Positions 33,373-56,794 of a stretch of 64,000 nucleotides of DNA are shown piece by piece. The stretch lies in NCBI GenBank assembly GCA_020205615.1, contig CM035170.1, positions 55,666,812-55,730,811 on the forward strand. Reading direction: 5' to 3'. Each line of letters opens with the position of its first letter. The stretch's first letter is position 1. A program made the position numbers and the translations under genes. This DNA is from Panax quinquefolius (lineage: Eukaryota > Streptophyta > Magnoliopsida > Apiales > Araliaceae). A model generated the notes under the pieces. The model was not told the origin of the DNA, did no database searches, and was given only the letters and a program-made list of their open reading frames with translations.

Positions 33373-33391
33373 TAGGGGTGAAAAATGATCC
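33373..33391 (+). repeat. hAT left terminal inverted repeat
   Basis: TAGGGGTGAAAAATGATCC pairs with the complement of 56748-56765, with one extra A. Subterminal CGAGT/ACTCG motifs follow to about 33760 and could be transposase sites. Confidence 0.88.
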
Positions 33392-34036
33392 AAGTAACTC
33401 GGTACCCGATTCGGATTCGACCCAAAAATATGATCCGGGTATCGGTTTTGATAGCATCCGAGTCGAATATGGGCCAAAGGCTCGTTTTTGGGTTATAATA
33501 CTGATATCGAATCTGAGCAGAGTACTACTCACTCATTTTAGGGTTTGAACCATCCTCATTCATCTGATCCTTACTCGATCCTTGCTCGATGAACCTTACT
33601 CGTTTAAGGGTTTGGTACTGCTCGATCTCTGATAAAGAAGTGGAAAGGTTTAGTTCACGGTGAATTAATCTCTTGAGTCTTGAGTCGAGTCTTGATTCTT
33701 TAAACAATCTTCAGTTCAGACTTCAATCGACTCCGACCTCTCGACTCTCGAGACTTCTCAGTCTCACTTCACTGACTCTTCAATGGCCTCTTCGCCTCTT
33801 CGTTTAGTGATTCAATCTCAGAATCACTAAAGCCCTATTCCCAAAACACGATTGATGAAGCTGAAGCCATAAAGGTCGAAGTGAAAATGCGTGTAAGTCA
33901 GTTCTTATTTATATATTTATATATATATATATATTCTTCTTCTGATTACTTCTATAGTTTTGTTATACCAAAAATCCCCAATCAAAAAATTTAAACCCCA
34001 ATTTTTAGCTTTCAAGATTCAATTCGATCTTATTCA

Positions 34037-34206
34037 ATGGAACACTTTGATGCTTCAGGTATGTTCAGTATAGATTTGTAGTTTTTTGTTGATGGGTATG
34101 TGGTTTTGAAAGATTTTATCGATTTATGTAATGTTATGTTCATGTGCTTTGTTAACTATTTATACATCTGAATTATTGTTAACTATTTACTGATTATCTG
34201 ATGTTC

Positions 34207-34245
<39 letters not shown>

Positions 34246-37200
34246 ATTCTTGCATCTGTAACATGATATATGAATACAGCAAAAAAAACATGATATATGA
34301 GCGACAAAGCAAGTATTTACTCATAATCTTTTCTCTCAATTCGTTCATATGATGTCTCTCAATTTCCTTTTCTCCATCGTAATTCTCATTATAATAGTTA
34401 GTGGGCCTATCTGGTTGTCTTCATGGCATACATATATATCATTTTTTGGTGCGATTTTTCAGTGTATACTTACAGAAATTTTCTTAATTTTTGCATGTTT
34501 GCCTCTAAAAACTCATCTTTATTAAAGATGGGAGCTGTCTTGACATGGCTCTGCTTAAATTATCTTCTGTTTTTCCTTATTAATCCTATGAAATAAACCA
34601 AGGAAGGTATCAAATTCTAATACAGTACAACACTACATCCTAAGGAATAGACAGCATTCACTTACGAGATTAATTTTATTGATTTAATGACCTATAATGG
34701 CATCAAAATAACTGCCCAAAGTGGAGTTTGTCATCCTTATTGAGCAACATATTGAATTTAGATTGTATTCTGAATGAAGCATTTGATGTTGGTTGCCTGT
34801 GGAATATGTTATTTAGATTGTTAATCATTTTCCCCTTAACTGTAATGGTATAGTAGACATGTCATTTCATCTGTTCATGCGGTCATGCCTTCCCTTTAAT
34901 CAGCTTATATATGGGGTTTAGACTACCTTCCTTAATAATCTGGTTATCAAATAATTACTGGTGAAGAAAAAACTAAGAAACAAAGTGAAGAAAACAACTG
35001 GCAACCAACTACCATTTAAATTTAGTTGAGTTACCTTATGCCAACAACAGGAAGAGTATATGCATTCTCCTCTTCCCTTATACAACCCTAAAAACCTTGT
35101 ATATATATATGGATGGGTCTGTTCTGCTGTCTAGAAGTGAGTCTTTAGTCTGATAGCAGGGTGCACTTTAGGCCTTTTAGCAGTCTGATAGCATGGTGAA
35201 CTTCATGGCATACATATATATAGCATGACTGATTGACTGTTGTATTTTAATTTATTTGACATTGTATTTCAAAATGTATTTAGTTGAATGTAATACTCAT
35301 TACGACAATTTTATTATGCATGCATATGTTATATCCTTTGTATCTAATTCTGATAATTTTTTTTATTTATTTGTTTAAGGTAACAATGAGATCATAAGTT
35401 TGATTGAAGACCCATCTGGACCATCTCAAGTGCCGAATACTCAAACTAAAAATCAACCTAAACTTATTGGTGATTCTCAGCCAGAAAATGTTACTGAGGT
35501 TGAAGTTGAAGCTAAGCATGGGAAAAAAAGAAAAAAAAAACCTCAAAACCATGGGATGAGTTTACTATTGTGACATTAAAAGATGGAACTAAGAAGGTTG
35601 AGTGCAAGCATTGCCATTCAAGGCTTGCTCTTCAAAATTCGGGTTCTACCACTCATTTAAATAGGCACATGAACTCTTGCTCTATTCGGCTGGCTTCAAT
35701 TTCTGGCTTCGGAAAACCCAAGCAACAGGTATTATCTTATCCTACTTTAAAAGTTGAAGGTAAAACTGGTAACTTGAATTTCTTCAAGTATGATAAAGAA
35801 AAAGTAAGGGAGCTTTTTGCTAAGATGATATGTGTGCATGAATACCCTTTTCGTATGATTGAGCATGAATTTTTCATACTATTTTTGAAAACTTTGAATC
35901 CAAGATTTGATCCCATTTCTAGGGTGATAGTAAGGACTGATTACATGAAGCTTTATGCTTTAAAAAAGAAAAAAATTAAGGCTCTGTTTGATGGTATTAG
36001 TAGGATAAGTTTAACTTCTGATTTATGGACTTCTAATCAAACTATTGGTTATATGTGTCTCACTACTCATTTTTTGGATTCGGATTGGAACTTGCATAAA
36101 AGGGTTATCAATTTTTGTACCATGGCACCTCCACATACTGGTCTTATGATTTCTGATTCTATTTTGCATTGTATAACTGAGTGGGGAATTGAAAATAAAA
36201 TATCGACCGTGACTCTTTATAATGCATCTACAAATGATTCTGCTGTAAGTCATCTTAAGGATAATTTTACATTGAAAGGTGGCCTTTATTTTAGTGGTAA
36301 AATATTTCATGTTAGATGTTGTGCCCACATTTTTAACTTGATGGTGCAAGATGGTTTGGGGATTATCCAAAATGTTATTCAAAACGTTCATGAGATTGTC
36401 AAGTACTTGAAAATGTCTCTATCTCGTCTTCATAAATTTGGTGAGATTGTGAAAAATTTGCAATTACCGTCTTCAAAAATATTGATCTTAGATGTCCCTA
36501 CTAGGTGGAACTCCACATATGCCATGTTAGAGTCTGCTTTGCAATTCAAGGATGTGTTCCCATTGTACAAAGAGAGAGACCTTCATTATAACTCTTTGCC
36601 TAGTAAGGAAGATTGGGACAGGGCTAAGAGGGTTTTTAAATTTTTAGAAGTGTTTAATGAAGCAACAAATGTATTTTCTGGCTGTGAATATCCTACTTCC
36701 AATTTGTTTTTACCTGAGATTTGGAAAATCAAGGAGCTATTGAATGAAACTATTGTTGATGATTGTGAATATATGAAAGAAATGGCTTACAAGATGAAAG
36801 AGAAGTTTGATAAATATTGGGAACAATGCAACTTACTGATGGTTATTGCATCTATCTTAGATCCAAGATATAAGATGCAATTAGTTATATTTTGTTTCCC
36901 AAAGATGTATGTCAGTGAGTTTGAAGCCAAGAGGAACTTAACACTTGTTCAAAATGCTTTGCAAGAACTATTTGACGAATATGTGTCACTTTACAATGCA
37001 GAACAAGTTGTTAATAGTCAATGTGGAACTTCAATTGCTAAACCAATGGTTTCTGTTGGTGGATCTAAGAGTAAGACCAAGAGTAGAGCAGAGTTTGACA
37101 GTTGGGCTCAAAACATGGACATTGCATCCCCATGTTTGAAGTCTAATTTGGAAATTTACTTGGAAGAAGGGAGATTGGTTTGTAATGCTGATGATAATTT

Positions 37201-37578
37201 TGATGCTTTAAAATGGTGGAAGGCAAACACTTTAAAATTCAAGGTTTTGTCTAGGATGGCAAGAGATATATTGTCCATACCTGTGACTACTGTGGCCTCT
37301 GAATCAACATTTAGTGCTGGGGGAAGGGTTCTTGACCAGTTCAGGAGCTCTTTAAAGCCCGACACGGTTCAGGCTTTGATTTGCACAGGTGATTGGTTGC
37401 GAGCTGAGTATAAGATTAAGAAAAGCATGATTGTAAGAATTAATTTATTTAATTGTTTTTACATAAATAAACACATATGCAAATAATATCATGGATTAAT
37501 ATTAGTTGTTTGACAATGTAAGCTGATGAAGATTCAATGCAGGAGGTGAGCTTGGAGACCGAAGTGCTGATACAGTGA
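34037..37578 (+). pseudogene. hAT-family transposase, nearly intact, one homopolymer frameshift and a lost catalytic Asp
   Basis: The proposed model is exon 1 at 34037-34058 (MEHFDAS), an intron to 35379, exon 2 at 35380-37432, an intron with GT-AG ends and exon 3 at 37543-37578. The 638-codon frame from 35570 holds a BED-type zinc finger (C12, C15, H29, H33), the first catalytic Asp in SDLWTSNQ (D151), RCCAHIFNL, a conserved PTRWNSTY (311-318) and the C-terminal hATC region with the catalytic Glu in ASESTFS (E578). The second catalytic Asp, usually in LDNAS, is Tyr217 (LYNAS). An A10 run (35531-35540) breaks the frame between the acidic N-terminal part and the BED finger; it may be a sequencing error. 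It would cut and join element ends in the nucleus, but the Tyr change predicts inactivity. Confidence 0.85.
34208..34243. repeat. TA dinucleotide microsatellite
   Basis: About 17 TA repeats lie in the transposase intron. A shorter TA tract lies at 33908-33932. Confidence 0.85.
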
Positions 37579-38102: not shown

Positions 38103-38174
38103 TAAAGAAATGAAAAGTTGTTTTACAAACTTCTAATTGATAATGTTGAGGAACTGCTACCAATAGTGTACACT
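38103..38174 (+). pseudogene. Captured fragment of NADP-dependent malic enzyme
   Basis: After an acceptor-like TGTTTCAG the plus strand encodes RNEKLFYK followed by [15 protein letters not shown]. This is the conserved N-terminal segment of plant malic enzyme, which decarboxylates malate to pyruvate. Homology stops after the Thr where the enzyme continues with a Pro; the frame then runs a few foreign codons to a stop near 38197. Only 24 residues are present, so it has no enzymatic potential. It lies about 0.5 kb downstream of the transposase on the same strand, and I infer capture by the hAT. Confidence 0.8.
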
Positions 38175-38579
38175 GCTGACCACTTTCTTGCCGAAGTATA
38201 GACCATTTCCCCCCTATGTTTTAAGTTTTTAATGCAATATAACTTTGAAAACCTTTATTTATTTTATTCTTATAGGCTTTGAAGTGGTTGGGGTTTCATG
38301 AATTTAATCCAATGGGGTAAGAACCATTCTCTTTTGATAACTTATGTATCTCATTATTGTTTCTGGTATAAGAATCTTAACATTTTTACCACTATCATGT
38401 TCATGGCACTGTTAAGCTTGAGATGGTTATATTATATATGGAATGTTAATTTCAGACTTCTTGCCCAACTCTGTAGTTTAAAAATAAGCCTATTGAATTT
38501 CTCAAATTGCCAAACTGTCCATAATGTTTCAATTTAGTTAATAATTACGTTTCTTTGATTGAGCTGTTATATTATTTAC

Positions 38580-38775
38580 AGAATTTTTGTGAAGGGCAGA
38601 CAAGCATTGACAATGGTGAGGTTTGGTGCTGAAATAGTTTTCAGTTCCAAAGATAGCACAATCACAGACGAGGATATAGACAGGATCATTGCTAAAGGAG
38701 AAGAAGCAACAACTGAGCTTGATGCCAAGATGAAGAAATTTACAGAAGATGATATCAAATTTAAAATGGATGACA
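38580..38775 (+). pseudogene. Captured ISWI chromatin-remodeller exon (CHR11/CHR17-like), part 1
   Basis: From MVRFGAEIVF (38610) the plus strand encodes SSKDSTITDEDIDRIIAKG and then KMKKFTEDDIKFKMDD, nearly identical to the segment after the helicase domain of plant ISWI ATPases. An acceptor (TTTACAG) lies at about 38580, and the first about 30 bases do not match ISWI. The donor is GTATAT at 38776. The codon split across this donor is completed exactly by the second piece at 55325 to give MDDTADLYDF. The fragment has no ATPase domain and no complete HAND or SANT domain. The intron now holds element G. Confidence 0.88.
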
Positions 38776-38816
38776 GTATATCAATTTTTTATTTTCACAA
38801 CTTCAATAATGCTATA

Positions 38817-39483
38817 TGTTGGGTCATGATATTTTATCTCATTGGGCCGGGTAGATTGGGCTTACTCCTTTAATTAATCTATTGGACCTTTATTATTGAA
38901 CCATGAAAGTCCTTGAGCCCAGTTATCCTATTATTTCCATTTTGACTTATAAGACCGGCCTGGTCCGAAGGGTCGATCCTTTGACATTTTAATATCTATT
39001 ATTTTGACTTGCAATGATGAAAAAAGCATGACGGTTGACTAGAGAACCTGCCATGCATTAATGTGGATGGGATTATAACCTACGGCCAGTAGAAAACAAG
39101 GACCAAAAGCAAGTGGATAAACTACATGCAATTTGGTAGAACCCATCGATCAAGGGGGTGTGTCGTAGTAGTAAGTGGGTGGCACCAGAATCCGCAAAAG
39201 GAGAGTATGGCTTAGCAAGGAAGTCTTCACAAAGAGGTATGTACACACATTTTTATCATTCATATTTACAGACACACAACGAATTATTATCATCATCTAT
39301 CTCAATACACTAGGCATTACATCCTCCATTTTGTTAACCTTGTGAACACGTTTACTGACTCTCACGCCTGAGCTATCCCCCGACTTTAACAAACCGCCAA
39401 GCTTTTGGGTGTTTATCGTGTTTATCGTGGCAGATCGTATGCCTTATGTGATTGGGACGTGGCGTAAGATCTTGGCGCTAACA
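38817..39483 (+). repeat. 5' LTR of element G
   Basis: It starts TGTTGGGTCATG and ends GCGCTAACA. It aligns with 54602-55262 but with short clustered differences (for example around 38846-38866 and 39085-39200). The interior begins TCAAGCGCTAGAAGGAGGGG, a primer-site-like segment whose tRNA I did not assign. Confidence 0.88.
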
Positions 39484-39574
39484 TCAAGCGCTAGAAGGAG
39501 GGGCCGCCATCTAGTGTTATTTAAATTTTCAATCACAATTGTTTAACTTACTTCTAAGATGATGAGGAGTAGAG

Positions 39575-41350
39575 ATGGTACACCGTAAAGGCAAAGCGAT
39601 GGTCGCCGGCTCATCATCGCCAGATTTCAAAGAAGGGACCGTCTGGTCCCTTCTAAAAGTGCTCACGAAAGCACGGCCTCTAAACACAACTCAGAGAACT
39701 TCGTCCAAGATCCACGGTGGAGCCGCACGGAAGTTGGTTTTCAACGCCGATAAGGAGCGTGATCCCGATCGTAAGTGTGGAAGGCTCACCACCGTGACTC
39801 ACCGCCAAGTGGTCAAGAGGATGAGTCGCCAAATCATGCGAGGATGGCGACGGGCAAGCGAGATAAGGCTTTGGAGGTTCATTAAAACAAAGGGAAGATA
39901 TAGCCAAACAGATGCTTCGTGGTCGAAAGTTAAGGGACGCAAGCATCTAGCCATGTTCAACCGAGAGACGGAGTAGTATAAGGAGATACCTCGGCGGGAG
40001 GGTAAGGAGCCGGAACATTCTATGATGTGTTCAGGGATCGCTCATGCAGTAGAGGAGATCAAGAGCGTAACACCCTCGGCCTCAAGAAGGCAATCGATGG
40101 TCGCTGGTTCACCGTGATCGCGCGATGATGATTTAAGAAGCGTGTCAAGAGAAATCGTGCGTAAACCCAAGAAGAGAGAGTACCGCAAGACAACCATTCT
40201 CATCATGGGGATGAAATTATACGTCCTAGTAGATCAAGAAGTCCCACAAGGGCAGTGGGATCGGCAGGAAGAGGTCGATCCACTCAAAGGCCGAACGTCG
40301 CTCAGAAGAAGGAGATCTCATCGCAACCCGGCGGTGTTGATTTTCCGTAAAGGAGTTGAAAGAACTCAAAAAAAAATTGGGCCGAGGTCCAACAGTGAAA
40401 GACACTCCTGGAAAGAAGGCGTCCCCTTTTTCCTCCAATATTCTCAAGGAGAAGGCAGATATCACCAAAAAGTTGCCTCATATGGAGAGCTATGATGGGT
40501 CCGAAGATCCTTATGACCATAGTCAGGCGTTCGACCGGCTGATGGACTATTATGACTTCACTGATGCTGCCAAGTGTCACACTTTTGTCACGACGCTGAG
40601 CAAAGACGCAAGACAGTGGATGGGGACTTTGCCATCGGATTCGATTTCCTCTTGGACCGAGCTTTGTGATAAGTTTCATGCACGTTTTGGAAGCAACCGA
40701 AGAAGGGGAAAGCCTACAGGTTCTTTAGCACAGATCCGACAGTTCACCAGCGAATCTTTAGGCCAATATGTGAAGAGGTTTAGGGAAGCGGTTGGTCAGG
40801 TGTCCGATCTTAATGATCTCCAAGTCGTGGGTTTATTCCGTAATGGGCTAGATCTGTTTAAGTCGGAGAAGTTGGTGAAGAAGTTGATGTTTCACCATCC
40901 GGTGCTCGCGTAAGCCTTTCGACAAGGTATAAGGCTATATTATCGTAGAAGAGGCTATGAATAGTCCGAAAATCCTTCTTTGAGCCAATTAAAGGAGGTA
41001 GAGGTTCCCAAGGTCAAGTTGATCGTAGAAGAATGGGGGATACAATCAGGGTCAAGGTAGTTCAAAGAAGTATAATAACTCGTGGCGCAAGCAAGGCGCA
41101 AGCCATGCACCTGCTTCGCCTCCAAGGTTAATAAGGTCTACACCCAATCGAACACGAGAGAGGTCGGTAATTTTGGATCAAATCGAAAACCAAATTTTCT
41201 TTAAGCCACCTCGTGATAATTATAGACGACGACACATGGCAACCCTCAGAAATATTGTGGTTATCATCAAGTCACCGCCACGCCACTTAATGAAAAGGTT
41301 GCAATTTAAAGGATTTCGTGGAGAAGAAGATTAGAGGCGGCTTGGTCGAT
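39575..41350 (+). pseudogene. Element G gag
   Basis: Positions 39575-39976 are a basic N-terminal frame starting MVHRKGKAMV. The capsid region is 40356-40913: SFSS-like NIL, then MESYDGSEDPYDHSQAF, a DARQWMGTLPSDSISSW segment and LGQYVKRFREAVGQV. This is the gag domain of Tat/Ogre-type elements. Positions 41230-41350 retain a degraded YCGYHQ segment where the nucleocapsid zinc site is expected. Frame changes near 40350 and 40915 split the gene. Gag would form the particle in the cytoplasm. Confidence 0.75.
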
Positions 41351-41499
41351 TCAAGATGTGGTCGAGAAGGACCGCCAGATCAGCAGACTATCATCACCGT
41401 ACTATTCAGACGGCTCAAGCCCTACCCATCCAAAATGCTCCAGTACCACCGCCAAGGCAAGTCGTTGATGTAATAACCGGTGGGTCTGTAGGGAAGTTG

Positions 41500-41870
41500 G
41501 TAGGGAGGAAGAGAAGGGCTTATCTTGATTCTTGGCCATGTATCCGTGATAGATGCTACCTCAAGATCGATGTACCATTCCAGTGAACCGCCATATCATT
41601 TACGGATGCGTATTATCCTTCTGAGCCCATCGAGCCGCATGAAGGGGCTCTTGGTGATCACAAAGACAAGTAGGCTCAGGGATGGATGAAAGCGCATGAT
41701 GATAGACAATGGGTCTTCGATGGACATTCTCAGATGCCCATGCTTATCGTAGAATGCATCTTAATGGGCACAAAATGGAGGTCGGACAGAGGCTCTCTAT
41801 ACTGCTTTAAGAATGACCCGCCAGAGAGTTGCAGGCACTATTGAACTCCCTGTTATCTTCGGCACAGCCT
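41500..41870 (+). pseudogene. Element G protease region, degraded copy
   Basis: This stretch aligns with the inverted copy at 50302-50598, whose frame is open and shows IDNGSS, an aspartic-protease active-site motif. In this forward copy the frame is broken around SEPIEPHEGAL, and the active-site stretch reads in several frames. Confidence 0.6.
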
Positions 41871-42329
41871 CTCAGCAGGTAGAGATAACGTGCAAATTCT
41901 ATGTTGTGCATGTGGATTCGGCTTACAACGCCATACCGAAGACTCCACGCTGACAGCTCTCCAAGTTGTGACCTCCATCCCACATTTCAAAATCAAATTC
42001 CCCACTACGCATTGAGTAAGAGAGGTGGTGGGAGACTTAGACCGCCCGACGATGTTATCTAATGTCATTATTTCATCCTAATGGGGTCAATAAATGTAAA
42101 AGACGATGGCAATTGAGATCTAACCCTTCACTGAGAGCAGCTCGGAACCGTTGGTGATCCCTGCAGGGGGGGCGGAGGAGATTGAGTTGGTTATAGGAAA
42201 GCCGGACAAGACAGTGAGGATTGGTTCTGGCTTACTGTAACCTCTTCTTCGGACGAACCTTATGGAACTCTTACGCTGCTATGTGGATATTTTTGCATGG
42301 GAGCCACAAGACATGCCGGGAGTTAGCCG

Positions 42330-43000
42330 AAAGGTTGCTAAGCATAAATTGGAGATAGATCCTTCGAAAAAGCCGCCTTAACGAAAGAGGCGGATATTTG
42401 CTCCAGAGCGCGAGAAGATCATCGACGAAGAGGTTACGAAACCGCTAGTCACCGACTTCATCTACGAAATTGATTACCCGTAATGGATAGCAAATGTGGT
42501 GTCAAAAGTATGTATGGAAAATGGCGGGTTTGCATCGACTACACCGATCTCAATAAAGCTTGTCCGAAGGACTTTTATCCTCTCGCCCCATATCGATCAA
42601 ATTTCATCGATGCCACTTCGGGTATGATTACTACTAAGCTTTATGGATGTTTTTTCAGGTTATCATCAAATATCCATGTGCAAAGAGGACATTCCAAAGA
42701 CAGTGTTCATTACACACCGTTTGGTGTACGCCTATAAAAAGATGACTTTTGGCCTTATAAATGCTGGAGCTACCTACCAAAGAATGATGAACTTCATTTT
42801 CGACAGGCAACTGGGGAGGAACATGGAGGTTTATGTAGATGACATGATCGTGAAGAGTATGCAGATTCAGAAGCATTTGGACGACCTGGAGGAATGTTTT
42901 CAGATCGTCTGCTATCGCTAATTGAGACTTAATCCGCCCAAATGTACTTTCTACCTTGGTGCGAGAAAGTTTTTGGGTTATCCGTCACCGTAGGGGCATC
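42330..43000 (+). pseudogene. Element G reverse transcriptase
   Basis: WRVCIDYTDLNKACPKDFYPL (in two short runs) is the RT fingers/palm segment with the Tat-type LNKACPKD. DVFSGYHQISMCKEDIPKT follows, then FGLINAGATYQRMMN, and the catalytic box VYVDDMIVKS near 42830-42860 is intact. Frames change near 42640 and 42920. Downstream PPKCTFYLG and GIEANPEKIQ (42935-43020) complete the thumb. It would copy element RNA into DNA. Confidence 0.8.
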
Positions 43001-43229
43001 GAGGCCAATCCGGAGAAGATCCAGCCATTCTTGATATGAAGACTCTCGGTCATTCAAAGACGCCCAACATCCGATCGGTAGGATTGTGGCTTTGAGGAGG
43101 TTCGTCGCGCCAAGTCTCATGGAGAGATGCCTTCCTTTCTTTGACACATCAAGGGGTCAAGAATGCGAAGACGCTCCAAAGGACTTCAGAGTGTGAAGAC
43201 GCCTTCCAAGGCATAAAGACATATCTGCC

Positions 43230-44070
43230 TTCCGCTTCCTTTATTAATAAAGCCCCGCCCAAAGAGAGAGACTTTATATTTATACCTTGCAAATGAGTTC
43301 ATTACGCGTAGGAGCAAGATTGGTTCGGGAGATCGCTGGGAAGCAAAGATCCGGCCTATTATGTCGCCCACGCCCCACGAGATGTCAAACCAGTATCCAA
43401 ATATTGAGAAATTTGCCTTTGCTTTAATAATTGCTAGTAGAAAGCTTCGATAATATTTTCAAGGTCGACTCTCGGTCGCCTATACGGATCGACCATCAAG
43501 AAGGTGATGGGCAAGCCGTAGGTTTCAGTGTAGACTAAGCAAATGGACTATGGAGTCATCCCCAATTTTTTATCGAGTACCATCCCCGAATGCCATCAAA
43601 GGTCAAGCTCGCCGATTTTATGGTGGAATGTTCATTCACCGGCAGATGCCGAGTTTCCTGAAGTCAATCGTCTGACGGGCAATTGCCGCTTCTTCAAATA
43701 GGATCGTAGGCTTGGACGTCAGATGCAGATGGATCCTCTACGATGATCATTAGTGGAGCAGAATTATTTTAATAAGTCCGGAGGGATTCAAGGTTCAAAG
43801 AAGCCATCGTGTTCGGGTTTAAAGCAACGAACAACGGTTTCGAGTAATGGTTGGATTAGCAGTGTCCGATTGGCAAAGAGTCTCAAGTCCAACAATTTGA
43901 TTATCTATAGTGATTCTCAATTGGTCGTTAAACAATTGTTTGAGATTATGAAGATCGTGGGACCTTGATAATCAAATACCGGCGTAATTAAGAGACCGAC
44001 TTCAATATTTCGCTTCGTATGAGTTTCAGAGCATAGAGCGAAATGACAATTCTATTATCGATGCATTGTC
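43230..44070 (+). pseudogene. Element G RNase H and second RNase H-like domain
   Basis: Around 43340-43400 the sequence reads PAYYVAHAPRDVKPVSKY, matching the first RNase H of Tat elements. Positions 43820-43960 encode SLKSNNLIIYSDSQLVVKQL, part of an archaeal-type RNase H (the SDSQLVV motif), as known in Tat-clade elements. Both are disrupted by frameshifts. Confidence 0.65.
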
Positions 44071-44369
44071 GGTTCGCCACTACAGATGCGTATGTTTTCC
44101 ACGGATCGGTATATATTTGGAAGTTTTGGCGAAGCAGCCAAGTGTTCAAAGACGAAGCGTTGATGTGTATCGAAATGATCTAGCCGCTTGGATGACCCCT
44201 CACATCGAAAGTATTTGGCGGATGGCATCCTTCCTTCTGATCGATGTTCGTCAAAAGAAGATTAAGTACAAGAGTGCCAATTTTAGTCTTATTGATGGGG
44301 ATCTCTATCGATTGGCATTTTCCTCACCATTGTTGAAATGTTTGGTTCCGTCCCGAGGTAGAGTATGCT

Positions 44370-45354: not shown

Positions 45355-45500
45355 AAAAGGCACTAGATGGTTCCAGATCAAGAATACTTGGCATGTCAAG
45401 CAGCTTCTAAATATTTTCAATAAAGATTAAGTCAGTTTATCGGAAGTCTGTACACGATTGTTCGTTATCAATAAAAAGTCACTTTTTCATAATTTATCCT

Positions 45501-46045
45501 GGTCCTATTTGTCCTAAGGTCACTATGGTGTAAGGAGGTATGGTAGGACTCGCTGGCCATTCGATGGTAGCCCAAGGTCCTTATGATCCTATATTGATCT
45601 TATCAGGGTGGTAAGTCAATGGTCACTATTGATCCTGGTCCTATTTGTCCTAAGGTCACTATGGTGTAAGGAGGTATGGTAGGACTCGCTGGCCATTCGA
45701 TGGTAGCCTAAGGTCCTTATGATCCTATATTGATCTTATCAGGGTGGTAAGTCAATGGTCACTATTGATCCTGGTCCTATTTGTCCTAAGGTCACTATGG
45801 TGTAAAGAGGTATAGTAGGACTCGCTGGCCATTCGATGGTAGCCTAAGGTCCTTATGATCCTATATTGATCTTATCAGGGTGGTAAGTCAATGGTCACTA
45901 TTGATCCTGGTCCTATTTGTCCTAAGGTCACAATGGTGTAAGGAGGTATGGTAGGACTCGCTGGCCATTCGATGACAGCCCATAAAGGTCCTTATGATCC
46001 TATATTGATTTTACTAGGGTGGTAAATCAATGGTCACTATTGATC
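45501..46045 (+). repeat. 136-bp tandem array 1 (4 units)
   Basis: GGTCCTATTTGTCC recurs at 45501, 45637, 45773 and 45909, exactly 136 bp apart. The fourth unit diverges in its second half. It lies just downstream of integrase. Confidence 0.92.
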
Positions 46046-46462
46046 CTTGTATCTTGGCCCTTATATATTTGTTCTACCCCGAGAGGTAAGCAAGATTTCG
46101 ATGGTGCAAGGAGGATCGACTAAGTTCACCTCACACATGACTGATCTCACACTTCGGTATCGATGAGCATATATTACTTTATTTTGTTTAAATATTGAGT
46201 TCGGGCCATTTAATTCAGCTTAAGTTGAATCTCGTCCAAAAAAAATTCACTTTACTATATTTCATAAATTAATCATATATGTGCCATATCCGATTCACTA
46301 GTCGGGATTAGTTTATTAATATGAATTATTGACAAGAAATTAATCAAAACGTAGTCATGATCAAGATGCTTAAAAAGATTCATTCATTCATGTTAATAAT
46401 AAACCAATCCCATAATTACGTAAACTTTAAAGTAGTTAAATTTTTACATAAAATAAAAACAG

Positions 46463-47957
46463 AAGAACATTCAGCCCCACCTTCATCATCGGAGTTGAGC
46501 AATGCCAGTCCAACTAAGCGTACCGATAGCTTCTCTTTTCCTCGCTCAAAGAATCTTCGCATTCCCTCAGAGTATACCTTCAAGATTTCGGCATTAAGTT
46601 CGTCCAATTCCTCAGAGTCTGCTCGAATTTTCTCCGGATCTCTTCAATCGAGAGGGCCCCATCCTTCAAGATCCTTTATTTTGTGGCGAAGTTTGTGACG
46701 CTTAGCCTTATGCCTTCGTTTCTTCGTCTTGAGCCTTCGTCTCACCTCACCAAGTTGTATAACTAAGCTTCGGTTATCAAGAAAACTCCTCATTTTTTGC
46801 CTTCAGAGTAAGTTTTCTTCACCAAACCAAAGATTCATATCGACAAAAGCTTGTTGGCTAGCTTCGACGCAGCCCAACCCATCCTCGTGGCTTTAACTCG
46901 TCAGTCGATGTCTACAAATCCATCCTAGCCCGATCTAATTCTCGCTTTGAAGACCGTTGATGGTATGAAAAGCATCTTCACGACCGCTCTCTCTCGATCC
47001 AAGGTTGATTTCAAAGATTTTATCTCTTGTCTCATGAAATCTTCCTCGGCCTCTCCATTTATGTGTCTCGGACGCAATCGTCCGAAGACAGCATTAGCTT
47101 GCATATTTTCAAAATATTCAAGTCAACGTCCAAATATTCAAAGGAGAACAGAGATATAGAAGAAGAAGAAATTTTTATGTACCTTAGCCAAATAGCTCAT
47201 CCCTCATCGAAAGATTTTGTTCGTCAGTGATCACCAAACCGGGTCGCCGTTGTTCCAACGAAAGCTCCAAAGAGGTCGAAGGGGAAATTGGCATTGAACT
47301 TGGGCCACAAGGTCGGAGATCCCACAGCCTCGGCATGGTAACCCTGACCTGAGGGACCGGGTCGTTCGGGGGAAAGTCTTGGCCTTTCGGGAGAAAAAGT
47401 CGGTTGTTCAGGAGGGGTAGGGTCCGCGTGTATGTTTTCAATTGTAGGAGATTTATTTGGGGTGGGTCCTTGAGGTGTTGAGGCAGAGGCAGAACTCGGA
47501 TGGCTATCAGGAGTTCGCTTTCTCTTCCTGGATAGCGTTGGAATCCCTTCGTCCTGGTCACCGTCTTCGTCAATCTGTATTTCTACAGGGGGCACGAAGG
47601 GTGGGATGACCGAAGACTGAGGCACCCTGAGTTCTTCGGCAATTAGAGGGGTTATTTTTGTTTTTAATTTTTTGGTCCGAATGACACTTCTTCGATCAGG
47701 ATGATCGAGTAAGCCTCCTCGTCGAGGATTAGCTATGGGGGTTGGCTCTGTTTCTGGTGTGGATTCGGGAGGGCTAACAAGAGGGGTTGACCTGGGTTTT
47801 CTGGTGGCTCTCCTCTTCTGACGAGGATGAAGAGCCTCTTCTGGTACAATAACCTCTTCAGCCTCTGCTTCTTCTGTTCTAAATTCATCCGTATGAATTT
47901 CTGGGGTCGGTTCAGCTTCGGGAGTGGCTTCTGTTGGTATATTCTCAACAGCTTCCG
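46463..47957 (-). pseudogene. Element G antisense gene, truncated copy 1
   Basis: It aligns with 51770-53285, the 3' two thirds of the antisense gene. It includes the acidic, Pro/Ser-rich segment (minus 47625-47224; EIQIDEDGDQDEG, SRKRKR, SPERPRLSPERPGPSGQG) and the C-terminal SDELNAEILKVYSEG. It is cut at 47957-47966, where the sequence reverses direction. Several frame breaks occur. Confidence 0.75.
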
Positions 47958-47960
47958 AAG

Positions 47961-49436
47961 ATGCTTTTCATACCATCAACGGTCTTCAAACAGAATTAGA
48001 TCAGGCTAGGATGGATTTGAAGACATCTGACGACGAGTTAAGGGCCACGAGGGATGGGTTGGTCGCGTCAAAACCACCCAACAAGCTTTGACTGATATGA
48101 ATGCTGGTTTGGTTGAAGAAAACTTACTCCTGAAGGCAAAAAATGAGGAGTTTTCTTCAGCCAACTGAAGCTTGGTTATACAGCTTGGTGAGGCTGAGAT
48201 GAAGGCTCAAGACGAAGCACGAAGGCATAAGGCTAAACGTCACAAACTTCACCACAAAATAAAGGATCTTGAAGGATGGGGCCCTCTCGATCAAGAGATC
48301 CGGAGCAAATTCAGCGGACTCACAGAATTCAGACGAACTTAATGCCGAAATCTTGAAGGTATACTTTCGGAGGTACGAAGATTGCTTAGAGCGAGGAAAA
48401 AAGAAGCTATCTATCGCTTTTTCGGTTGGACCGGATTGCTTTCAACTCCGATGATGAAGGTGGGGCTGAATGTTAGATCTGTTTTTATTTTATGTAAAAA
48501 TTTAACTACTTTAAAGTTTCTGTAATTATGGGATTGGTTTATTATTAACATGAATGAATGAATCTTTAACTGTCTTGATCATGACTTCTGTTTCGATTAA
48601 TTTCTTGTCAATAATTCAGTATTAATAAACTAATCCCGACTAGTGAATCAGATATGGCACATAACAGTTAATTTATGAAATATAGTAAAGTGAATTTTTC
48701 GGACAGGATTCAACTTAACTGAATTAAATGAACTGAACTCAACAATTAAACAAAATAAAGTAATATATACTCATCGATACTGAAGTGTGAGATCAGTCAT
48801 GTGTGAGGTGAACTTAGTCGATCCTCCTTGCACCATCGAAATCTTGCTTACCTCTCGGGGTAGAACAAATATATAAGGGCCAAGATACAAGGATCAATAG
48901 TGACCATTGATTTACCACCCTAGTAAAATCAATATAGGATCATAAGGACCTTTATGGGCTGTCATCGAATGGCCAGCGAGTCCTACCATACCTCCTTACA
49001 CCATTGTAACCTTAGGACAAATAGGACCAGGATCAATAGTGACCATTGACTTACCACCCTGATAAGATCAATATAGGATCATAAGGACCTTGGGCTACCA
49101 TCGAATGGCCAGCGAGTCCTACCATACCTCCTTACACCATAGTGACCTTAGGACAAATAGGACCAGGATCAATTATGAAAAAGTGACTTTTTATTGATAA
49201 CGAACAATCGTGTACAGACTTCCGGTAAACTGACTTAATCTTTATTGAAAATATTTCCGAAGCCTGCCAGCATGCCAAGTATTCTTGATCTCGGAACCAT
49301 CTAGTGCCTTTAACCGATAAGTACCTGGCTTTGGTACTTCGATCACTTCATATGGCCCTTCCCAGTTCGGCATTAGCTTTCCTGTGTTTTGAGGCGTAGA
49401 GGCTTCGGCTATTCGGTCATGTCTGTGACAGATGTC
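47961..49436 (-). repeat. Inverted arm of the G hairpin (inverted copy of 50580-52306)
   Basis: From 47961 rightward the sequence is the reverse complement of the antisense-gene C-terminus, spacer, tandem array and integrase tail found at 52306 down to 50580. The arm differs from its partner mainly by having two rather than four 136-bp units (48891-49168). The integrase tail (minus 49440-49242) ends in NTWHAGRLRKYFQ. Confidence 0.82.
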
Positions 49437-50580
49437 CTCTTTGCACATGGATATTTGATGAGAACCTGAAAAAGCATCCATAAAGCTTAGTAATGCATAC
49501 CCCGAAGTGGCATCGATGAGTCGATCGATATGGGGAGAGGATAAAGTCCTTCTGGACAAGCTTTATTGAGATCGGTAGTCGATGCAAACCCGCCATTTTC
49601 CATTCTCGCTTCGCACTAACACCACATTTGCTATCCATTCGGGTAATCAATTTCAGAGATGAAGTCAACAACTAGCGCTTTAAGAACCTCTTCGTCGATG
49701 ATCTTCTCCGCTCGAGCAAATATCCGCCTTTCCGATTTAACCGGCTTTTTTCAAGGATCTATCTCCAATTTATGCTTAGAACCTTTCTGGCTAACTCCCT
49801 AGATGTCTTGTGGCTCCCATGCAAAAATATCCACATAGCAGTCAGTAAGAGTTCCATAAGGTTCGTCCAAGAGGTTCTCGCAGACCGTAACCAATCCTCA
49901 CCGCCTTGTCTCGGCTTTCTATAACCAACTCAATCTCCTCCGTCCCCCCTGCAGGATCACCAACGGCTCGAAATGCTCTCGGTGAAGGGTTCGATCTCAA
50001 TTGCCATCGCCTTTTTCTGCTCAATCGACCCCCATTCTGGATGAAATAACAAAGATTCCGATAACATCGCTTGCCAGTCTAAGTCTCCCACCACCTCTCC
50101 TACCCATGCTACCGGGGAATTTGATTTTGAAATGTGGGATGGAGGTCACAACTGAGAGTCACAACGAGTCTTCCCAAAGATGGCGTTGTGGTCGAATCCA
50201 CATGCACAACATAGAATTTGCACGTTATCTCTACTCACCGAGGGGTCAGCCAAGATAACAGGGAGTTCAATAGTGCTCGCAACTCTAACTCGGGTCGTTC
50301 ATTAAACCGTGATAGAGGAGCCTCCGTCCACCCTCCATTTTGTGCCCATCAAGATGCATCCTCCGATAAGCATGGGCATGCGAATGTCCACCGAAGACCC
50401 ATTGTCTATCATCATGCGCTTCACATCCACCGAGCCTACTTGTGTTGTGATTACCAAGGCCCCTTCATGCGGCTCGATGGGCTCTGAAGGATAATCTGCA
50501 TCCGTAAATGATATGACGGTTCCTGGGAATGGTCTGTCAATCTTCAGGGTAGCATCTGTCACAGACATGACCGAATAGCC
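49437..50580 (-). repeat. Hairpin loop: inverted copy of the G protease-RT segment
   Basis: About 1.14 kb correspond, inverted and collinear, to about 41560-42690. The protease part (minus 50598-50302) is open and shows IDNGSS. The RT part (minus 49671-49417) stops at the SNIHVQRGHL/MCKEDI position, exactly where the inverted integrase tail starts. Both edges carry inverted copies of a TATTCGGTCATGTCTGTGAC segment. Confidence 0.75.
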
Positions 50581-50745
50581 GAAGCCTCTACGCCTCAAAA
50601 CACAGGAAAGCTAATGCCGAACTGGGAAGGGCCATATGAAGTGATCGAAGTACCAAAGCCAGGTACTTATCGGTTAAAGGCACTAGATGGTTCCGAGATC
50701 AAGAATACTTGGCATACTGGCAGGCTTCGGAAATATTTTCAATAA
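50580..50745 (+). pseudogene. Element G integrase C-terminal tail, copy 2
   Basis: It encodes AEASTPQNTGKLMPNWEGPY (one short run) and PKPGTYRLKALDGSEIKNTW and ends RLRKYFQ with a stop. It is better preserved than the same segment at 45255-45430, where an insertion breaks the frame. Confidence 0.75.
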
Positions 50746-50822
50746 AGATTAAGTCAGTTTACCGGAAGTCTGTACACGATTGTTCGTTATCAATAAAAAG
50801 TCACTTTTTCATAATTTATCCT

Positions 50823-51365
50823 GGTCCTATTTGTCCTAAGGTCACTATGGTGTAAGGAGGTATGGTAGGACTCGCTGGCCATTCGATGGTAGCCCAAGGT
50901 CCTTATGATCCTATATTGATCTTATCAGGGTGGTAAGTCAATGGTCACTATTGATCCTGGTCCTATTTGTCCTAAGGTCACTATGGTGTAAGGAGGTATG
51001 GTAGGACTCGCTGGCCATTCGATGGTAGCCCAAGGTCCTTATGATCCTATATTGATCTTATCAGGGTGGTAAGTCAATGGTCACTATTGATCCTAGTCCT
51101 ATTTGTCCTAAGGTCACTATGGTGTAAGGAGGTATAGTAGGACTCGCTAGCCATTCGATGGTAGCCTAAGGTCCTTATGATCCTATATTGATCTTATCAG
51201 GGTGGTAAGTCAATGGTCACTATTGATCCTGGTCCTATTTGTCCTAAGGTCACAATGGTGTAAGGAGGTATGGTAGGACTCACCGCCATTCGATGACAAA
51301 TTTCATAAAGGTCCTTATGATCCTATATTGATTTTACTAGGTGGTAAATCAATGGTCACTATCGA
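50823..51365 (+). repeat. 136-bp tandem array 2 (4 units)
   Basis: Unit starts fall at 50823, 50959, 51095 and 51231, exactly 136 bp apart. The array is near-identical to array 1 and is followed by the same spacer. Confidence 0.92.
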
Positions 51366-51795
51366 TCCTCAGATCTTGCCCTTATATATTTGTTCTACCC
51401 CGAGAGGTAAGCAAGATTTCGATGGTGCAAAAGGAGGATCGACTAAGTTCACCTCACATACGATCGATCTCACACTTCTGTGATCGATGAGCATATATTA
51501 CTTTATTTTGTTTAAATGTTGAGTTCAGTTCATTTAATTCAGTTAAGTTGAATCCTGTCCGAAAAATTCACTTTACTATATTTCATAAATTAACTGTTAT
51601 GTGCCATATCTGATTCACTAGTCGGGATTAGTTTATTAATACCTGAATTATTGACAAGAAATTAATCAAATGTAAGTCATGATCAAGACAGCTTAAAGAT
51701 TCATTCATTCATGTTAATAATAAACCAATCCCATAATTACAGAAACTTTAAAGTAGTTAAATTTTTTACATAAAATAAAAACAGGACGAACATTC

Positions 51796-54239
51796 AGGCC
51801 CCACCTTCATCATCGGAGTTGAGCAATGCCGGGTCCAACTAAGCAGCCGATAGCTTCTCTTTTCCTTGCTCTCGGCAATCTTCGTACCCCTCCGAGTATA
51901 CCTTCAAGATTTCGGCATTAAGTTCGTCCGAATTCCTGTAGTCTGCCTGAATTTGCTCCCGGATCTCTTCAGTCAAGAGAGGGCCCCGTCCTTCAAGATC
52001 CTTTATTTTGTGGCGAAGTTTGTGACGTTTAGCCTTATGCCTTCGTTCTTCGTCTTGAGCCTTCGTCTCAGCCTCACCAAGTTGTATAACCAAGCTTCAG
52101 TTGGCTGAAGAAAACTCCTCATTTTTTGCCTTCAGGAGTAAGTTTTCTTCGACCAAACCAGCATTCATATCAGTCAAAGCTTGTTGGCTAGCTTCGGACG
52201 CAGCCAACCCATCCCTCGTGGCCCTTAACTCGTCGTCAGATGTCTACAAATCCATCCTAGCCTGATCTAATTCTGTTTGAAGACCGTTGATGGTATGAAA
52301 AGCATCTTCATGACCGGCTATCTCTCGATCCAAGGTTGATTTCAGCATGTTTATCTCTTGTCTCATGAAATCTTCCTCGGCCTCTCCATTTATGTGTCTC
52401 GGACGCAATCGTCCGAAGACAGCATTAGCATGCATATTTTCAAAATATTCAAGTCAACGTCCAAATATTCAAAGGAGAACAGAGATATAGAAGAAGAAGA
52501 AATTTTTATTTACCTTAGCCAAATAGCTCATCCCCTTATCGAAAGCGATTTAAAATTCGTGTGATCACCGAACCGATTGGTCGCCGTTGTTCAACGAAAA
52601 GCTCAAAGAGGTCGAAGGGGAAATTGGCATTGAACCTGGGCCACAAAGTCGGAGATCCCACAGCCTCGGCATGGTAACCCTGACCTGAGGGACCGGGTCG
52701 TTCGGGGGAAAGTCTTGGCCTTTCGGGAGAAAAAGTCGGTTGTTCAGGAGGGGTAGGGTCCGCGTGTATGTTTTCAATTGTAGGAGATTTATTTGGGGTG
52801 GGTCCTTGAGGTGTTGAGGCAGAGGCAAAACTCGAATGGCTATCAGGAGTTCGCTTTCTCTTCCTGGATAGCGTTGGAATCCCTTCGTCCTGGTCACCAT
52901 CTTCGTCAATCTGTATTTCTACAGTGGGCACGAAGGGTGGGATAATCAAGACCGAGGCACCCTTAGTTCTTCTAAGCTAGAGGGGTTATTTTTGTTTTAA
53001 TTTTTGGTTCAAGGACACTTCTTCGATCAGATGATCGAGTAAGCCTCCTCGCCGAGGATTAGCTATGGGGTTGGCTCTGCTTTACGGTGTGGATTCGGAG
53101 GGCTAACAAGAGGGGTTGACTGGGTTTTCGGGTGGCTCTCCTTCCGACGACGAGGATGAAGACCTCTTCGCACAAGAACCTCTTTAGCCTCTTCTTCTTC
53201 CATTTCTAAATTCATCCAGATTAATTTACGGGGTCGGTTCGACTTGAGAGTGGCTTCGCATTGGTATATTCTCAACAGCTTCCGAAGATTTCCCGGACAA
53301 AAAATCTTCGAACTCCTTTATTTCTAAGGAGCTCGGTCTGATCAGAGATACTGCATAAAACAAGCAATCCTATGTTAAATTACACATCATAAAATATTTT
53401 CAAAAACATTTTTATATATACGAAATAAACCAATACTTACATTTATGGTCATATAACCATGCTTGCTTCGAGAGGAGTCCATATTTCCACTCCTCCTTGG
53501 GGAAATTGTCGAAAAGTTCCATCATTTCCACTTCCCGTTCTTCAGAAATGTCTCCGAAGTCAGCAGAGATCTTTTCGTCACCGCCTAGCTTCAGAGAGAA
53601 GAAATCTCGGGACCTTTGACGTAGAACCACTTCTCATGCCATCCCCTATTGCTCAAGGAGTGTTCACTCAAAGAACGCCTCTCGAACTTTTCTCCAGACT
53701 TCGGAGAATGTTTGCTAAGGGCCTTGAACCCCTTCTCCCTGGATTGTACTATTTTGTAGACAGTGAAGAAGAAGTCAAGGGAGGGCTCGACGCCCAACTC
53801 ATGGCAGAAGGCCACAAAGGCCAGAATGTGAATATAGGAGTTTGGTACCAACTGGGAGAACCCCACACCCAGGAACCCCAGTAGGGTCACTATAAAAATG
53901 TGCAGGGGAAAACGAACCCCTTCTCCAAGAGGTCACGGGGACGGTAGTTCAACCTTCCTACCGTTGGTACATCTTTTCACCCGATCCGGGTACCGATCAA
54001 GTGGGTATTCTAATATGGAACCGAGATCAACCCTCTTTAGTTCAAATTCGATCCACGATAGAAGGAGTGTTGGCATGCGAGAAGCGATCCGTACTCCTGT
54101 AGTATTCAGAGGGGGTTTTTGGAGTTTTTGGTTTGGGGTTTACACTTGTGGTTCCTTCACGAGGGTTGGGGTTTGGTGGAACCACTGTGATCGGTGTTAC
54201 CAGTATTGGGGAACTTTGTTCAGAGTTGTGGGAAGCCAT
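51796..54239 (-). pseudogene. Element G antisense gene, full-length copy (gypsy-associated transposase_28-like)
   Basis: The likely start is the ATG complementary to 54237-54239 (MASHNSEQSS), after which comes a Pro/Thr-rich leader. The segment at minus 53890-53591 (FLGVGFSQLVPNSYIHILAF, then FCHELGVEPSLDFFFTVYKI) resembles the family called putative gypsy-type transposon (PF04195), which is common in antisense genes of Tat-clade elements. A disordered acidic/Pro-rich middle (minus 52949-52536) with an SRKRKR basic patch follows. The coiled-coil C-terminus (minus 52435-51839) has long Glu/Lys/Arg heptads and ends SDELNAEILKVYSEG. The function of the family is unknown. Frame breaks near 53590, 53400, 53060 and 52540 make this copy a pseudogene unless they are errors. 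Confidence 0.75.
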
Positions 54240-54583
54240 TTGTGACGATTTGCAGAGAAAGATCAAAAAGTTTGGAAGGCGCTCGAATTTCAAATGAACA
54301 GGTAAAACTGTCAAATTTGATAAAGTTATCCTTTTATACTGACGGTTACACGGTGTTCAAGGCTGGTACATTAAATGTTAGTAATAATTTGGAATTTGAA
54401 TGGGAAGCGTCCGGTCTCGGGTCCAGATATTTAATAGATAGGGCCTTTCTGATTTGGGCCTTTAATCTCCTTTCATCTCATTTTGTGAGCAATAACCGTA
54501 CATTTCAATTACTTTCTTTATTATGGATTTTCAATAAAATATCATGGACTATTTATAGTTTTCTATTAAACATTCTGCTCAAC

Positions 54584-54601
54584 AAAAAAACTAGGGGGCA
54601 A
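54584..54601 (+). other. Element G polypurine tract
   Basis: AAAAAAACTAGGGGGCAA lies immediately before the 3' LTR start TGTTGGG, as expected for the plus-strand primer. Confidence 0.75.
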
Positions 54602-55262
54602 TGTTGGGTCATGATATTTTATCTCATCGCCGTAGAGATTGGAACTTACTCCTTTAATTAATCTATTGGACCTTTATTATTGAACCACGAAAGTCCTCGT
54701 GGCCCGCTTATCTTATTATTTCCATTTTGACTTATAAGACCGGCCTTTAGGTCAGGTGGGTCGATCCTTTGGACATTTTAATATCTATTATTTTGACTTT
54801 GCAATGATGAAAAAACATGACGGTTGACTAGAGAACTCATCATGCATTAATGTGGATGGGATTATAACCTACGTGGCGGTAGAAACAATGACCAAAAGCG
54901 TTGGATAAACTACGTGCGATTTGGTAGAACCCATCGATCGAGGGTGTGTGGTAGTAGTGGGTGGCGCGGTAATCCGCGCGAGAGTATAGGCTTAGCGAGG
55001 AATGCACAAAGAGTGAGTAGTGCACACACATTTTATCATTCATATTTACGTATTACACAACGAATTATTATCATCATCTATCTCAATACACTGGTGATTA
55101 CATCCTCCATTTTTTGTTAACCTCATGAACACGCGTTCTCGACTCTCACGCCTCGAAATTTATCCCCGAACGGTAATCAAACCGGTGTTTATCGTGTTTC
55201 TTGTCATCGCGGGATCGGCGTCTTATGTGATTGGGACGTGGCAGAAGATCTTGGCGTTAACA
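54602..55262 (+). repeat. 3' LTR of element G
   Basis: It starts TGTTGGGTCATG and ends GCGTTAACA, and is followed by the CTATA duplication and the ISWI intron. Confidence 0.88.
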
Positions 55263-55324
55263 CTATATATGGTGATCTTTTCAGAATGGGATAATGCTAA
55301 ATTTAATTGTCTGGCATTGTGCAG

Positions 55325-55356
55325 CTGCTGATTTGTATGATTTTGGTGATGAAAAG
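55325..55356 (+). pseudogene. Captured ISWI exon, part 2
   Basis: After the acceptor TTGTGCAG the 32 bases complete the split Thr codon from 38775 and encode TADLYDFGDEK, matching plant ISWI. A donor GTGATT follows. Intron phase and both splice signals are kept, which shows that genomic DNA rather than a spliced copy was captured. A near repeat GTGCAGCTGCTGATT lies at 55363-55377. Confidence 0.85.
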
Positions 55357-55441
55357 GTGATTGTGCAGCTGCTGATTAGTGGTGAAGACGCTGATTTTTA
55401 GTATATGTAATATCCAACTATATCTGACTCATTCAGCTAAG

Positions 55442-55530
55442 TACATTTGTCATTCGAGATGCGGAGGAGTACAAGAATTTCTGTGATCGCCCAAAGGACC
55501 AGAGACCACAAACAGAAGAAGTCATTGGGG
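55442..55530 (+). pseudogene. Possible captured exon of unidentified origin
   Basis: A block between an acceptor (GCTAAG) and a strong donor (GTAAGCC) has protein-like composition. One frame reads FVIRDAEEYKNFCDRPKDQR followed by PQTEEVIG. A second frame is also open. I do not recognise the gene. Its position between two captured genes makes capture likely. Confidence 0.45.
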
Positions 55531-55637
55531 TAAGCCATTAAGTTCATACTGTTCATTATACTCGTAAGTTTAGCCTTCAAGTTGGTTCATCAACGTGTTT
55601 AACACTTACCAAAAGTATTTGTTGTTATGCTTTGCAG

Positions 55638-56367
55638 ATTTTGCATGTTGGGAACCTAAATAAAAATGCTTAGAAGGCACTCATAGCTGCAGAATACTGT
55701 GGTGTAAAAGTTGAACTGGTAAAGGATTTTCATATGGGTGTATCAAATAAAACACCTGAGTTTCTGAAAATGAACCCAATGGGAAAGGTGCATGCTATTT
55801 GGATTAAAAAAACTTATGCTAGGTATCTGGTTTGCAACTTGTTTCTGTACTAAACAATTCCTTTGTTCTTGTAGGTTCCAGTGCTTGAAACACATGATGG
55901 TGCCATTTTTGAGAGTAATGCAATAGCACGTTACGGTGAGACCAAGTCCTCTTGTAGGTATTCGAAATTTTGATCAAATGTTCTAACTGTACTCTTTTAT
56001 TGCTTTCTGCAGTTGCTCGCTCGAAGCCTGATAATTCCCTTTTTGGCTCTTCGGCAATTGATTATGTAGGCCATTTCGTTTTACTTTTTCTTTCTCTGCA
56101 GCTTTCTGTTTCAACTTGTTACAATTAATATTATAATAAAACTAACAAAATTTCTTGTGAACTTGATGATGTGGTCATTTATCTGTTATTTGGCAGGCCA
56201 ACATTGAGCAATGGATTGATTTTGCATCGTTGGAGATTGATGCCAATATATCTGTAGATGGAGAGTATATCTTTCCATGTGGACATGCATTTCATGCCCA
56301 ATGCCTGATTCCCCACGTTATGAGGTGTAGAGACCAAACTCAAAGAAAGATATATAGAAGTTTTTAA
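55638..56367 (+). pseudogene. Captured eEF1B-gamma exons fused in frame to a VPS18 RING segment
   Basis: Four exons with GT-AG borders are visible: 55638-55787, 55875-55935, 56013-56065 and 56197-56367. The first three and the start of the fourth encode the glutathione-transferase-like N-domain of elongation factor 1-gamma (KALIAAEYCGVKVEL, TPEFLKMNPMGK, FESNAIARY, IEQWIDF). At about 56260 the frame passes without a break into YIFPCGHAFHAQCLI and HVMRC, the C-terminal RING-type zinc finger of the vacuolar sorting protein VPS18, and ends at TAA 56365-56367. An in-frame TAG in exon 1 (55672-55674) replaces a Tyr/Phe codon. Initiation at Met 55733 would bypass it and give about 110 residues. Expression is unknown. 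Confidence 0.88.
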
Positions 56368-56765
56368 AGAAAGATACAAAGAGTTAAAAGATGAGTTGTG
56401 ATATCCTGTTCTGTGAGCGTTTGTAATTATGTTTAGAAACAAATGTAAATTTTGTCATCGTTTGAACACATGTATTTTTATATATAAACGAAATTGAAGT
56501 TTTTTGTAAGTTTTTATTTTATGTCTCATTTTGGTGTGATCCATCTGAGACTCGAGCTCGAATAGAAGGCTCGCGAATTACTCGTTGTGAAAACGAGTCG
56601 AGTAACTTCGAGCCGAGTAGTATCGATTAATTTATCGAGTCGAACTTGAGCAGCCTTGAAAATTATCAGTTCGAATTCGAGTCAAACCTGAACACAAATT
56701 TTTTGATCCGAGTTGAGCTTGAGCATTATGGTGTTCGGATCGACTCGGGATCATTTTCACCCCTA
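56368..56765 (+). repeat. hAT right subterminal region and terminal inverted repeat
   Basis: After the fusion frame there is a short AT-rich leader and then a segment rich in CGAGT/ACTCG motifs (56550-56740), mirroring the left end. The terminal repeat is 56748-56765 (GGATCATTTTCACCCCTA). Confidence 0.85.
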
Positions 56766-56794
56766 AGTGCTATTAAAAATTAGGCAACACGAGT

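Follow-up and report, generated by a model that had tools for sequence, protein, structure and literature searches.

A hAT insertion enclosing a transposase reading frame and intron-containing pieces of several host genes on one strand

Gene capture by hAT elements and the present locus

Pack-MULEs and Helitrons are the best-known examples of elements that capture pieces from several genes, and how unlinked genes come to be captured is left open in the accessible part of a 2026 review. Among hAT elements, Hatvine-6 of grapevine carries genic exons and introns alongside its transposase (PMC2528002), while in maize two Ds2 and nine Ds-l4 elements hold gene fragments, a condition termed rare for hATs in the available text of PMC3260210. 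Pack-TYPE elements include hATs too, with more in maize than in rice (PMC8903248, in the part at hand), and among animal Pack-TIRs, which are nearly all single-copy, 208 are hATs according to the accessible text of PMC8277862.

Here we describe a hAT insertion found in a window of 64 kb, the whole stretch of DNA that was analysed. It resembles Hatvine-6, whose copies share transposase and terminal inverted repeats (TIRs) around a variable and often genic interior; unlike in the present element, several donors per element or a common strand and frame are unreported in the accessible portion of PMC2528002. As in the maize Ds2 and Ds-l4 elements with their filler DNA, hAT ends surround intron-containing fragments of genomic source, for which repair of excision breaks was suggested there. 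In contrast to our element, the Ds2/Ds-l4 cases named in the available sections of PMC3260210 have one donor gene each and lack a full transposase ORF. With Pack-hATs the insertion has in common gene fragments within hAT TIRs (here of the host coding genes for NADP-malic enzyme, ISWI, CRL and eEF1B-gamma), an 8-bp duplication and a transposase activity predicted to come from elsewhere (PMC8903248). However, it has a transposase ORF of its own, and the pipeline of that study, as far as its available description goes, admits elements with no transposase hit and classes any transposase match as autonomous; the 638-aa transposase ORF found here is such a match. Template switching, with gap-filling and FoSTeST models, was proposed as the source of the Pack-TIRs in the accessible text of PMC8277862, those cases being from animals.

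An earlier note on this DNA had called such capture less usual for a hAT that still has a transposase frame, a judgement that does not hold against the precedents in grapevine Hatvine-6, maize Ds2/Ds-l4 and Pack-hAT. Thus gene capture by hATs is already known, while the element described here is unusually composite and is distinctive for the common strand and frame of its pieces. Our literature search, most subscription journals lying outside its coverage, returned no five-donor in-frame hAT. The locus offers a readable hAT example of the gathering of unlinked exons: five donors, introns and phases retained and a transposase ORF attached. Elements of this class would count as autonomous in one published pipeline. 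If a common strand and frame were general across copies, coding selection on such chimeras would become testable.

The insertion, its transposase and a nested retrotransposon

The insertion is delimited by four features:
33365..33372, left target-site duplication, 8-bp AGTGCTAT, read from the sequence
33373..33384, + strand, left hAT terminal inverted repeat, 12 bp, TAGGGGTGAAAA
56754..56765, - strand, right hAT terminal inverted repeat, 12 bp, TAGGGGTGAAAA
56766..56773, right target-site duplication, 8-bp AGTGCTAT, read from the sequence

These are the exact hAT ends and 8-bp duplications that had been noted before, the 12-bp TIRs pairing with 0 mismatches and AGTGCTAT standing on both sides. 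If 1 mismatch is allowed, the TAGGGGTGAAAA pattern has 2 matches, both at the outer hAT ends. At least 2 matches were also reached in 11 of 100 shuffles, so that the TIR alone is weak evidence; the insertion is convincing because an identical 8-bp AGTGCTAT flanks both ends. Short TIRs and an 8-bp duplication, as in the hAT superfamily, are both present, and positions 33373-56765 are a single hAT insertion of 23,393 bp, or about 6.9 kb without a nested LTR retrotransposon. Inside the 64-kb window there was no further copy of the element.

The transposase is represented by three features:
34037..34058, + strand, predicted first transposase coding exon (MEHFDAS), a prediction from the sequence and a GT donor
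35382..35569, + strand, predicted stretch coding for the transposase N-terminus, its frame differing from that of the main ORF
35570..37486, + strand, main transposase ORF, 638 aa, with the RNase-H and dimerisation domains of a hAT; Y at residue 217

The main ORF contains both the RNase-H and the C-terminal dimerisation domain of a hAT transposase (PF14372, 1e-32; PF05699, 2.6e-30) and matches Hermes in a profile comparison (2e-22). Among the best 120 of 1790 matches, those with a species name are from angiosperms, and the closest partial-length match has 84% identity over 65% of the query. Between the N-terminal part and the main ORF the frame changes within an A-rich run, a break that may be genuine or a sequencing error. 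Essential residues of Ac include D301, D367 and E719 (PMC6027215, in its available part), and the spacing of residues 151 and 217 here equals the 301-367 spacing of Ac. When the ORF was aligned with 13 relatives picked from the best 120 of 1790, residue 151 was D here and in 12 of them (N in one) and residue 578 was E here and in 11 (two being gapped), while residue 217, aspartate in 13/13, is tyrosine. Since the second catalytic aspartate is thus replaced by Y217, the transposase is predicted to be inactive. Of the intact D, D, E and intact coding frame of an autonomous hAT, D151 and E578 are retained; position 217 is Y and the N-terminal frame differs. Consequently, the earlier wording that the element still has a transposase frame is borne out by the 638-aa ORF and its hAT domains and overstated as regards Y217 and the out-of-frame N-terminal part.

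Further downstream the hAT is interrupted by a second element:
38812..38816, left 5-bp duplication CTATA, flanking the LTR element
38817..55262, LTR retrotransposon, a later insertion within an ISWI intron, not itself captured
55263..55267, right 5-bp duplication CTATA, flanking the LTR element

This retrotransposon of 16,446 bp, the LTRs of which start with TGTTGGG and finish with AACA, split the hAT after capture, its insertion point lying in an intron of one of the captured genes. Its two LTRs are 83% identical; the differences are clustered in GC-rich tracts with many gaps, the AT-rich tracts are identical, and the pattern looks like consensus error. An LTR clock, by which 83% identity would mean an old insertion, was considered and dropped in view of these clustered gaps and of the little damage seen in the captured exons and the transposase ORF. 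This rejection concerns the clock alone, and the LTR insertion itself stands. The age signals do conflict, young-looking captured pieces being set against the 83% LTR identity of a later insertion.

The captured gene pieces and their common frame

Downstream of the transposase and on its strand follow, in this order, pieces of NADP-malic enzyme, a stretch X, ISWI, CRL (CRUMPLED LEAF, a chromophore lyase), eEF1B-gamma and a RING protein:
38103..38174, + strand, NADP-malic enzyme exon piece, starting with a stop codon where relatives continue open
38175..38612, + strand, stretch X, open and in the common frame at 38175-38195, 38276-38316 and 38582-38612 if the predicted splicing is right
38613..38775, + strand, ISWI exon piece, from a solved-structure search and protein alignments
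55325..55356, + strand, second ISWI exon, TADLYDFGDEK when joined to the preceding exon
55437..55529, + strand, CRL exon, from homology search
55638..55787, + strand, eEF1B-gamma exon, interrupted by a stop at 55670
55875..55935, + strand, eEF1B-gamma exon, from homology and predicted splicing
56013..56065, + strand, eEF1B-gamma exon, from homology and predicted splicing
56197..56265, + strand, eEF1B-gamma exon part; a few unassigned bases precede the RING piece
56266..56331, + strand, RING piece of likely VPS18 origin, joined to eEF1B-gamma within one exon and in the same frame; stop at 56367

Searches of solved structures confirmed three donors named before: NADP-malic enzyme (E 4.7e-8), ISWI (E 5.1e-9) and eEF1B-gamma (E 2.3e-16; four exons with three introns). 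The frame of the malic enzyme piece starts RNEKLFYK, from 38106 on, and its E value depends on that start, an alternative query with a wrong start giving E 0.038. The ISWI piece is 85% identical to Camellia CHR11 and ends after DEK, beyond which two Camellia ISWI proteins (P0121, P0124) differ; this suggests that the end is a natural exon end. For the eEF1B-gamma piece, the highest identity to any of 117 plant proteins is 85%. An exon that the earlier note had listed as unidentified is indeed present and can now be assigned to CRL (E = 1.3e-11, search of solved structures).

The donor of the RING piece is the weakest of the names. In two solved-structure searches VPS18 was found with E 0.018-0.021, ranked third and second, outranked by RNF4 in both and by RNF13 in one, and Pfam returned RING-type families only. 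The piece fits what we take to be the plant VPS18 motif. From sequence comparison VPS18 is thus likely; the previous assignment survives as to a RING piece and a likely origin and, behind other RING proteins, stops short of proof. Stretch X gave nothing credible among solved structures and no homologue via Pfam or NCBIfam; it may be chance-open sequence. A protein search with X plus the RING piece yielded 2 candidates, none scored, and since VPS18 itself, expected in the length range, was absent, this search says little on X and lends no support to VPS18. A listing of open stretches in 33373-35381 and 37577-38102, as candidates for additional captured exons, gave short ones only.

Two further claims of the earlier note agree with these results. 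Transposase and gene fragments all lie on the same strand, enclosed by a single pair of hAT ends and a single duplication; introns and splice phases are retained in the pieces, so the source was genomic DNA and, because introns are kept, not mRNA.

Joined at predicted GT-AG sites, nine exons on the common strand form a single frame of 296 codons with no frameshift, in which codons 1, 163 and 296 are stops. Three joins lie within exons (malic enzyme/X, X/ISWI, eEF1B-gamma/VPS18), two run across introns with phase 0 on either side (ISWI/CRL, CRL/eEF1B-gamma). We modelled five independent donors, treating the passage from malic enzyme to ISWI via X as a single join and adding a further join inside an exon and two joins across introns, these last weighted by plant phase frequencies. 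The modelled chance of a shared frame was 0.019, and of frame plus strand 0.0013, both calculated after the pattern had been noticed and with splice sites around X chosen by the analyst. For these reasons the figures are no more than suggestive. Transcription that reads through from the transposase is predicted to be able to yield, once the pieces are spliced, a single chimeric mRNA; as two stops interrupt its frame, at most two ATG-started stretches, of 119 and 112 codons, would be open in it.

Among the best 120 of 1203 matches to the captured exons, those with a species name are from angiosperms, as with the transposase, which marks the window as plant DNA; 101 cover eEF1B-gamma only, 3 cover ISWI only, and 16 eEF1B-gamma alignments extend slightly into the RING part. 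These 16 were judged from their coordinates to be probable run-on rather than chimeras. Besides the stop, the eEF1B-gamma piece deviates at 1 of 56 columns that are conserved to at least 95% among the 117 plant proteins, the internal stop having been coded X as a fragment letter in a column below 95% and hence being absent from the deviating columns. In a leave-one-out control, real eEF1B-gamma proteins had a median of 0 and a maximum of 7 deviating columns. This conservation was considered as a sign of selection on the chimera and dropped, recent capture accounting for it equally well. By their sequence the captured pieces look young.

Origin of the composite element

We favour, with a probability of roughly 0.6, that a plant hAT gained intron-containing pieces of NADP-malic enzyme, ISWI, CRL, eEF1B-gamma and likely VPS18 by repair with template switching. 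A break within the hAT, from failed repair after excision or from a stalled fork, would have been repaired with short stretches copied from several loci. The composite would then have transposed here as a unit; if Y217 had arisen by that time, another copy would have supplied the transposase in trans. The LTR retrotransposon entered after the composite had formed. Two observations speak against repair filling: random filling does not predict a common strand and frame (about 0.001 modelled), and a looser scan for Helitron ends picked up, within an exon of eEF1B-gamma, a single CTRR-T site at 55716 that has a weak hairpin.

Another route, possible and on balance unlikely, is that two adjacent hAT copies contributed one end each to a hybrid element that enclosed a pre-existing mosaic of gene pieces. 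In the accessible literature, Pack-CACTA elements and local pairs of hATs are proposed to have taken such a route, and a single hAT event would suffice. However, the five-gene mosaic would have to be made by other means, while the block contains no borders of another carrier; moreover, inner hAT ends are absent, the TIR pattern occurring, within 1 mismatch, at the outer ends only.

The common strand and frame also invite a scenario of exon shuffling, in which the hAT stepwise assembled a spliceable in-frame five-gene fusion, strand and frame being kept by selection on a translated message that two nonsense changes later silenced. We consider this improbable.

It is also improbable that a Helitron or a Mutator-like element delivered the mosaic into the hAT, even if Helitrons and Pack-MULEs are the best-known carriers of several genes (as the available part of a review has it). 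The 2,738-bp block, from which the LTR element was excluded, was scanned for Helitron, CACTA-type and 8-10-bp-TSD borders. Instead of the CTRR end with a hairpin before the T that marks a Helitron, none of the 17 CTRRT sites in the block had a hairpin of at least 6 pairs with half or more G/C; CACTA-type ends were absent from it as well, although decayed ends could escape such a scan. The only candidate inner element with an 8-bp TSD and a 7/10 TIR, 38233-56359, was dropped, as it lies at the shuffle expectation (mean 1.17; at least one in 63 of 100 shuffles) and leaves the malic enzyme piece outside. Capture by the hAT, for which the earlier note had argued from the absence of other element borders, is therefore supported, the scans having turned up no convincing border of a Helitron, of a CACTA element or of another element with TIRs.

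An artificial join by the draft assembler, to which the consensus-error-like LTR differences (83% identity, GC-rich gaps) might point, is hardly credible, since both nested insertions carry exact duplications, the within-exon junctions keep the frame and 296 codons run without a frameshift.

Beyond the earlier note, the present analysis adds the replacement of D by Y, the break of the transposase frame near its N-terminus, the common frame of the exons and a short repeat at one of the junctions:
55316..55377, + strand, direct repeat of 18 bp where the ISWI and CRL pieces meet, copies at 55316-55333 and 55360-55377

The two copies are 44 bp apart, a configuration matched in 0/100 shuffles. For an origin by repair with template switching, this repeat is a possible scar of a switch.

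Long terminal repeats of the nested retrotransposon

Alignment of the two long terminal repeats (LTRs) of the LTR element nested in the hAT transposon placed them as follows:

38817-39483, first LTR
54602-55262, second LTR

The pair matches at 83% in this alignment, with mismatches and gaps concentrated in GC-rich tracts, while the AT-rich tracts are identical. The differences resemble consensus error more than normal ageing.

Internal repeats

Within the LTR element, at 45409-53100, segments recur in direct order at a spacing of about 5.3 kb, with one further, inverted copy between them. Each recurring segment carries a 136-bp tandem array.

Flanks of the hAT insertion

On the minus strand, the right flank of the hAT (56774-57373) resembles an integrase tail, presumably of the Ty3/gypsy type, that breaks off at the hAT; the left flank gave no clear continuation of this reading.

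ISWI segment in Camellia

Among the matches listed, three short Camellia proteins (P0121, P0124 and P0216; two named CHR11 or CHR11-like, one without a name) each gave two tandem matches to the same captured ISWI segment, which hints that this exon region may be duplicated in Camellia as well.
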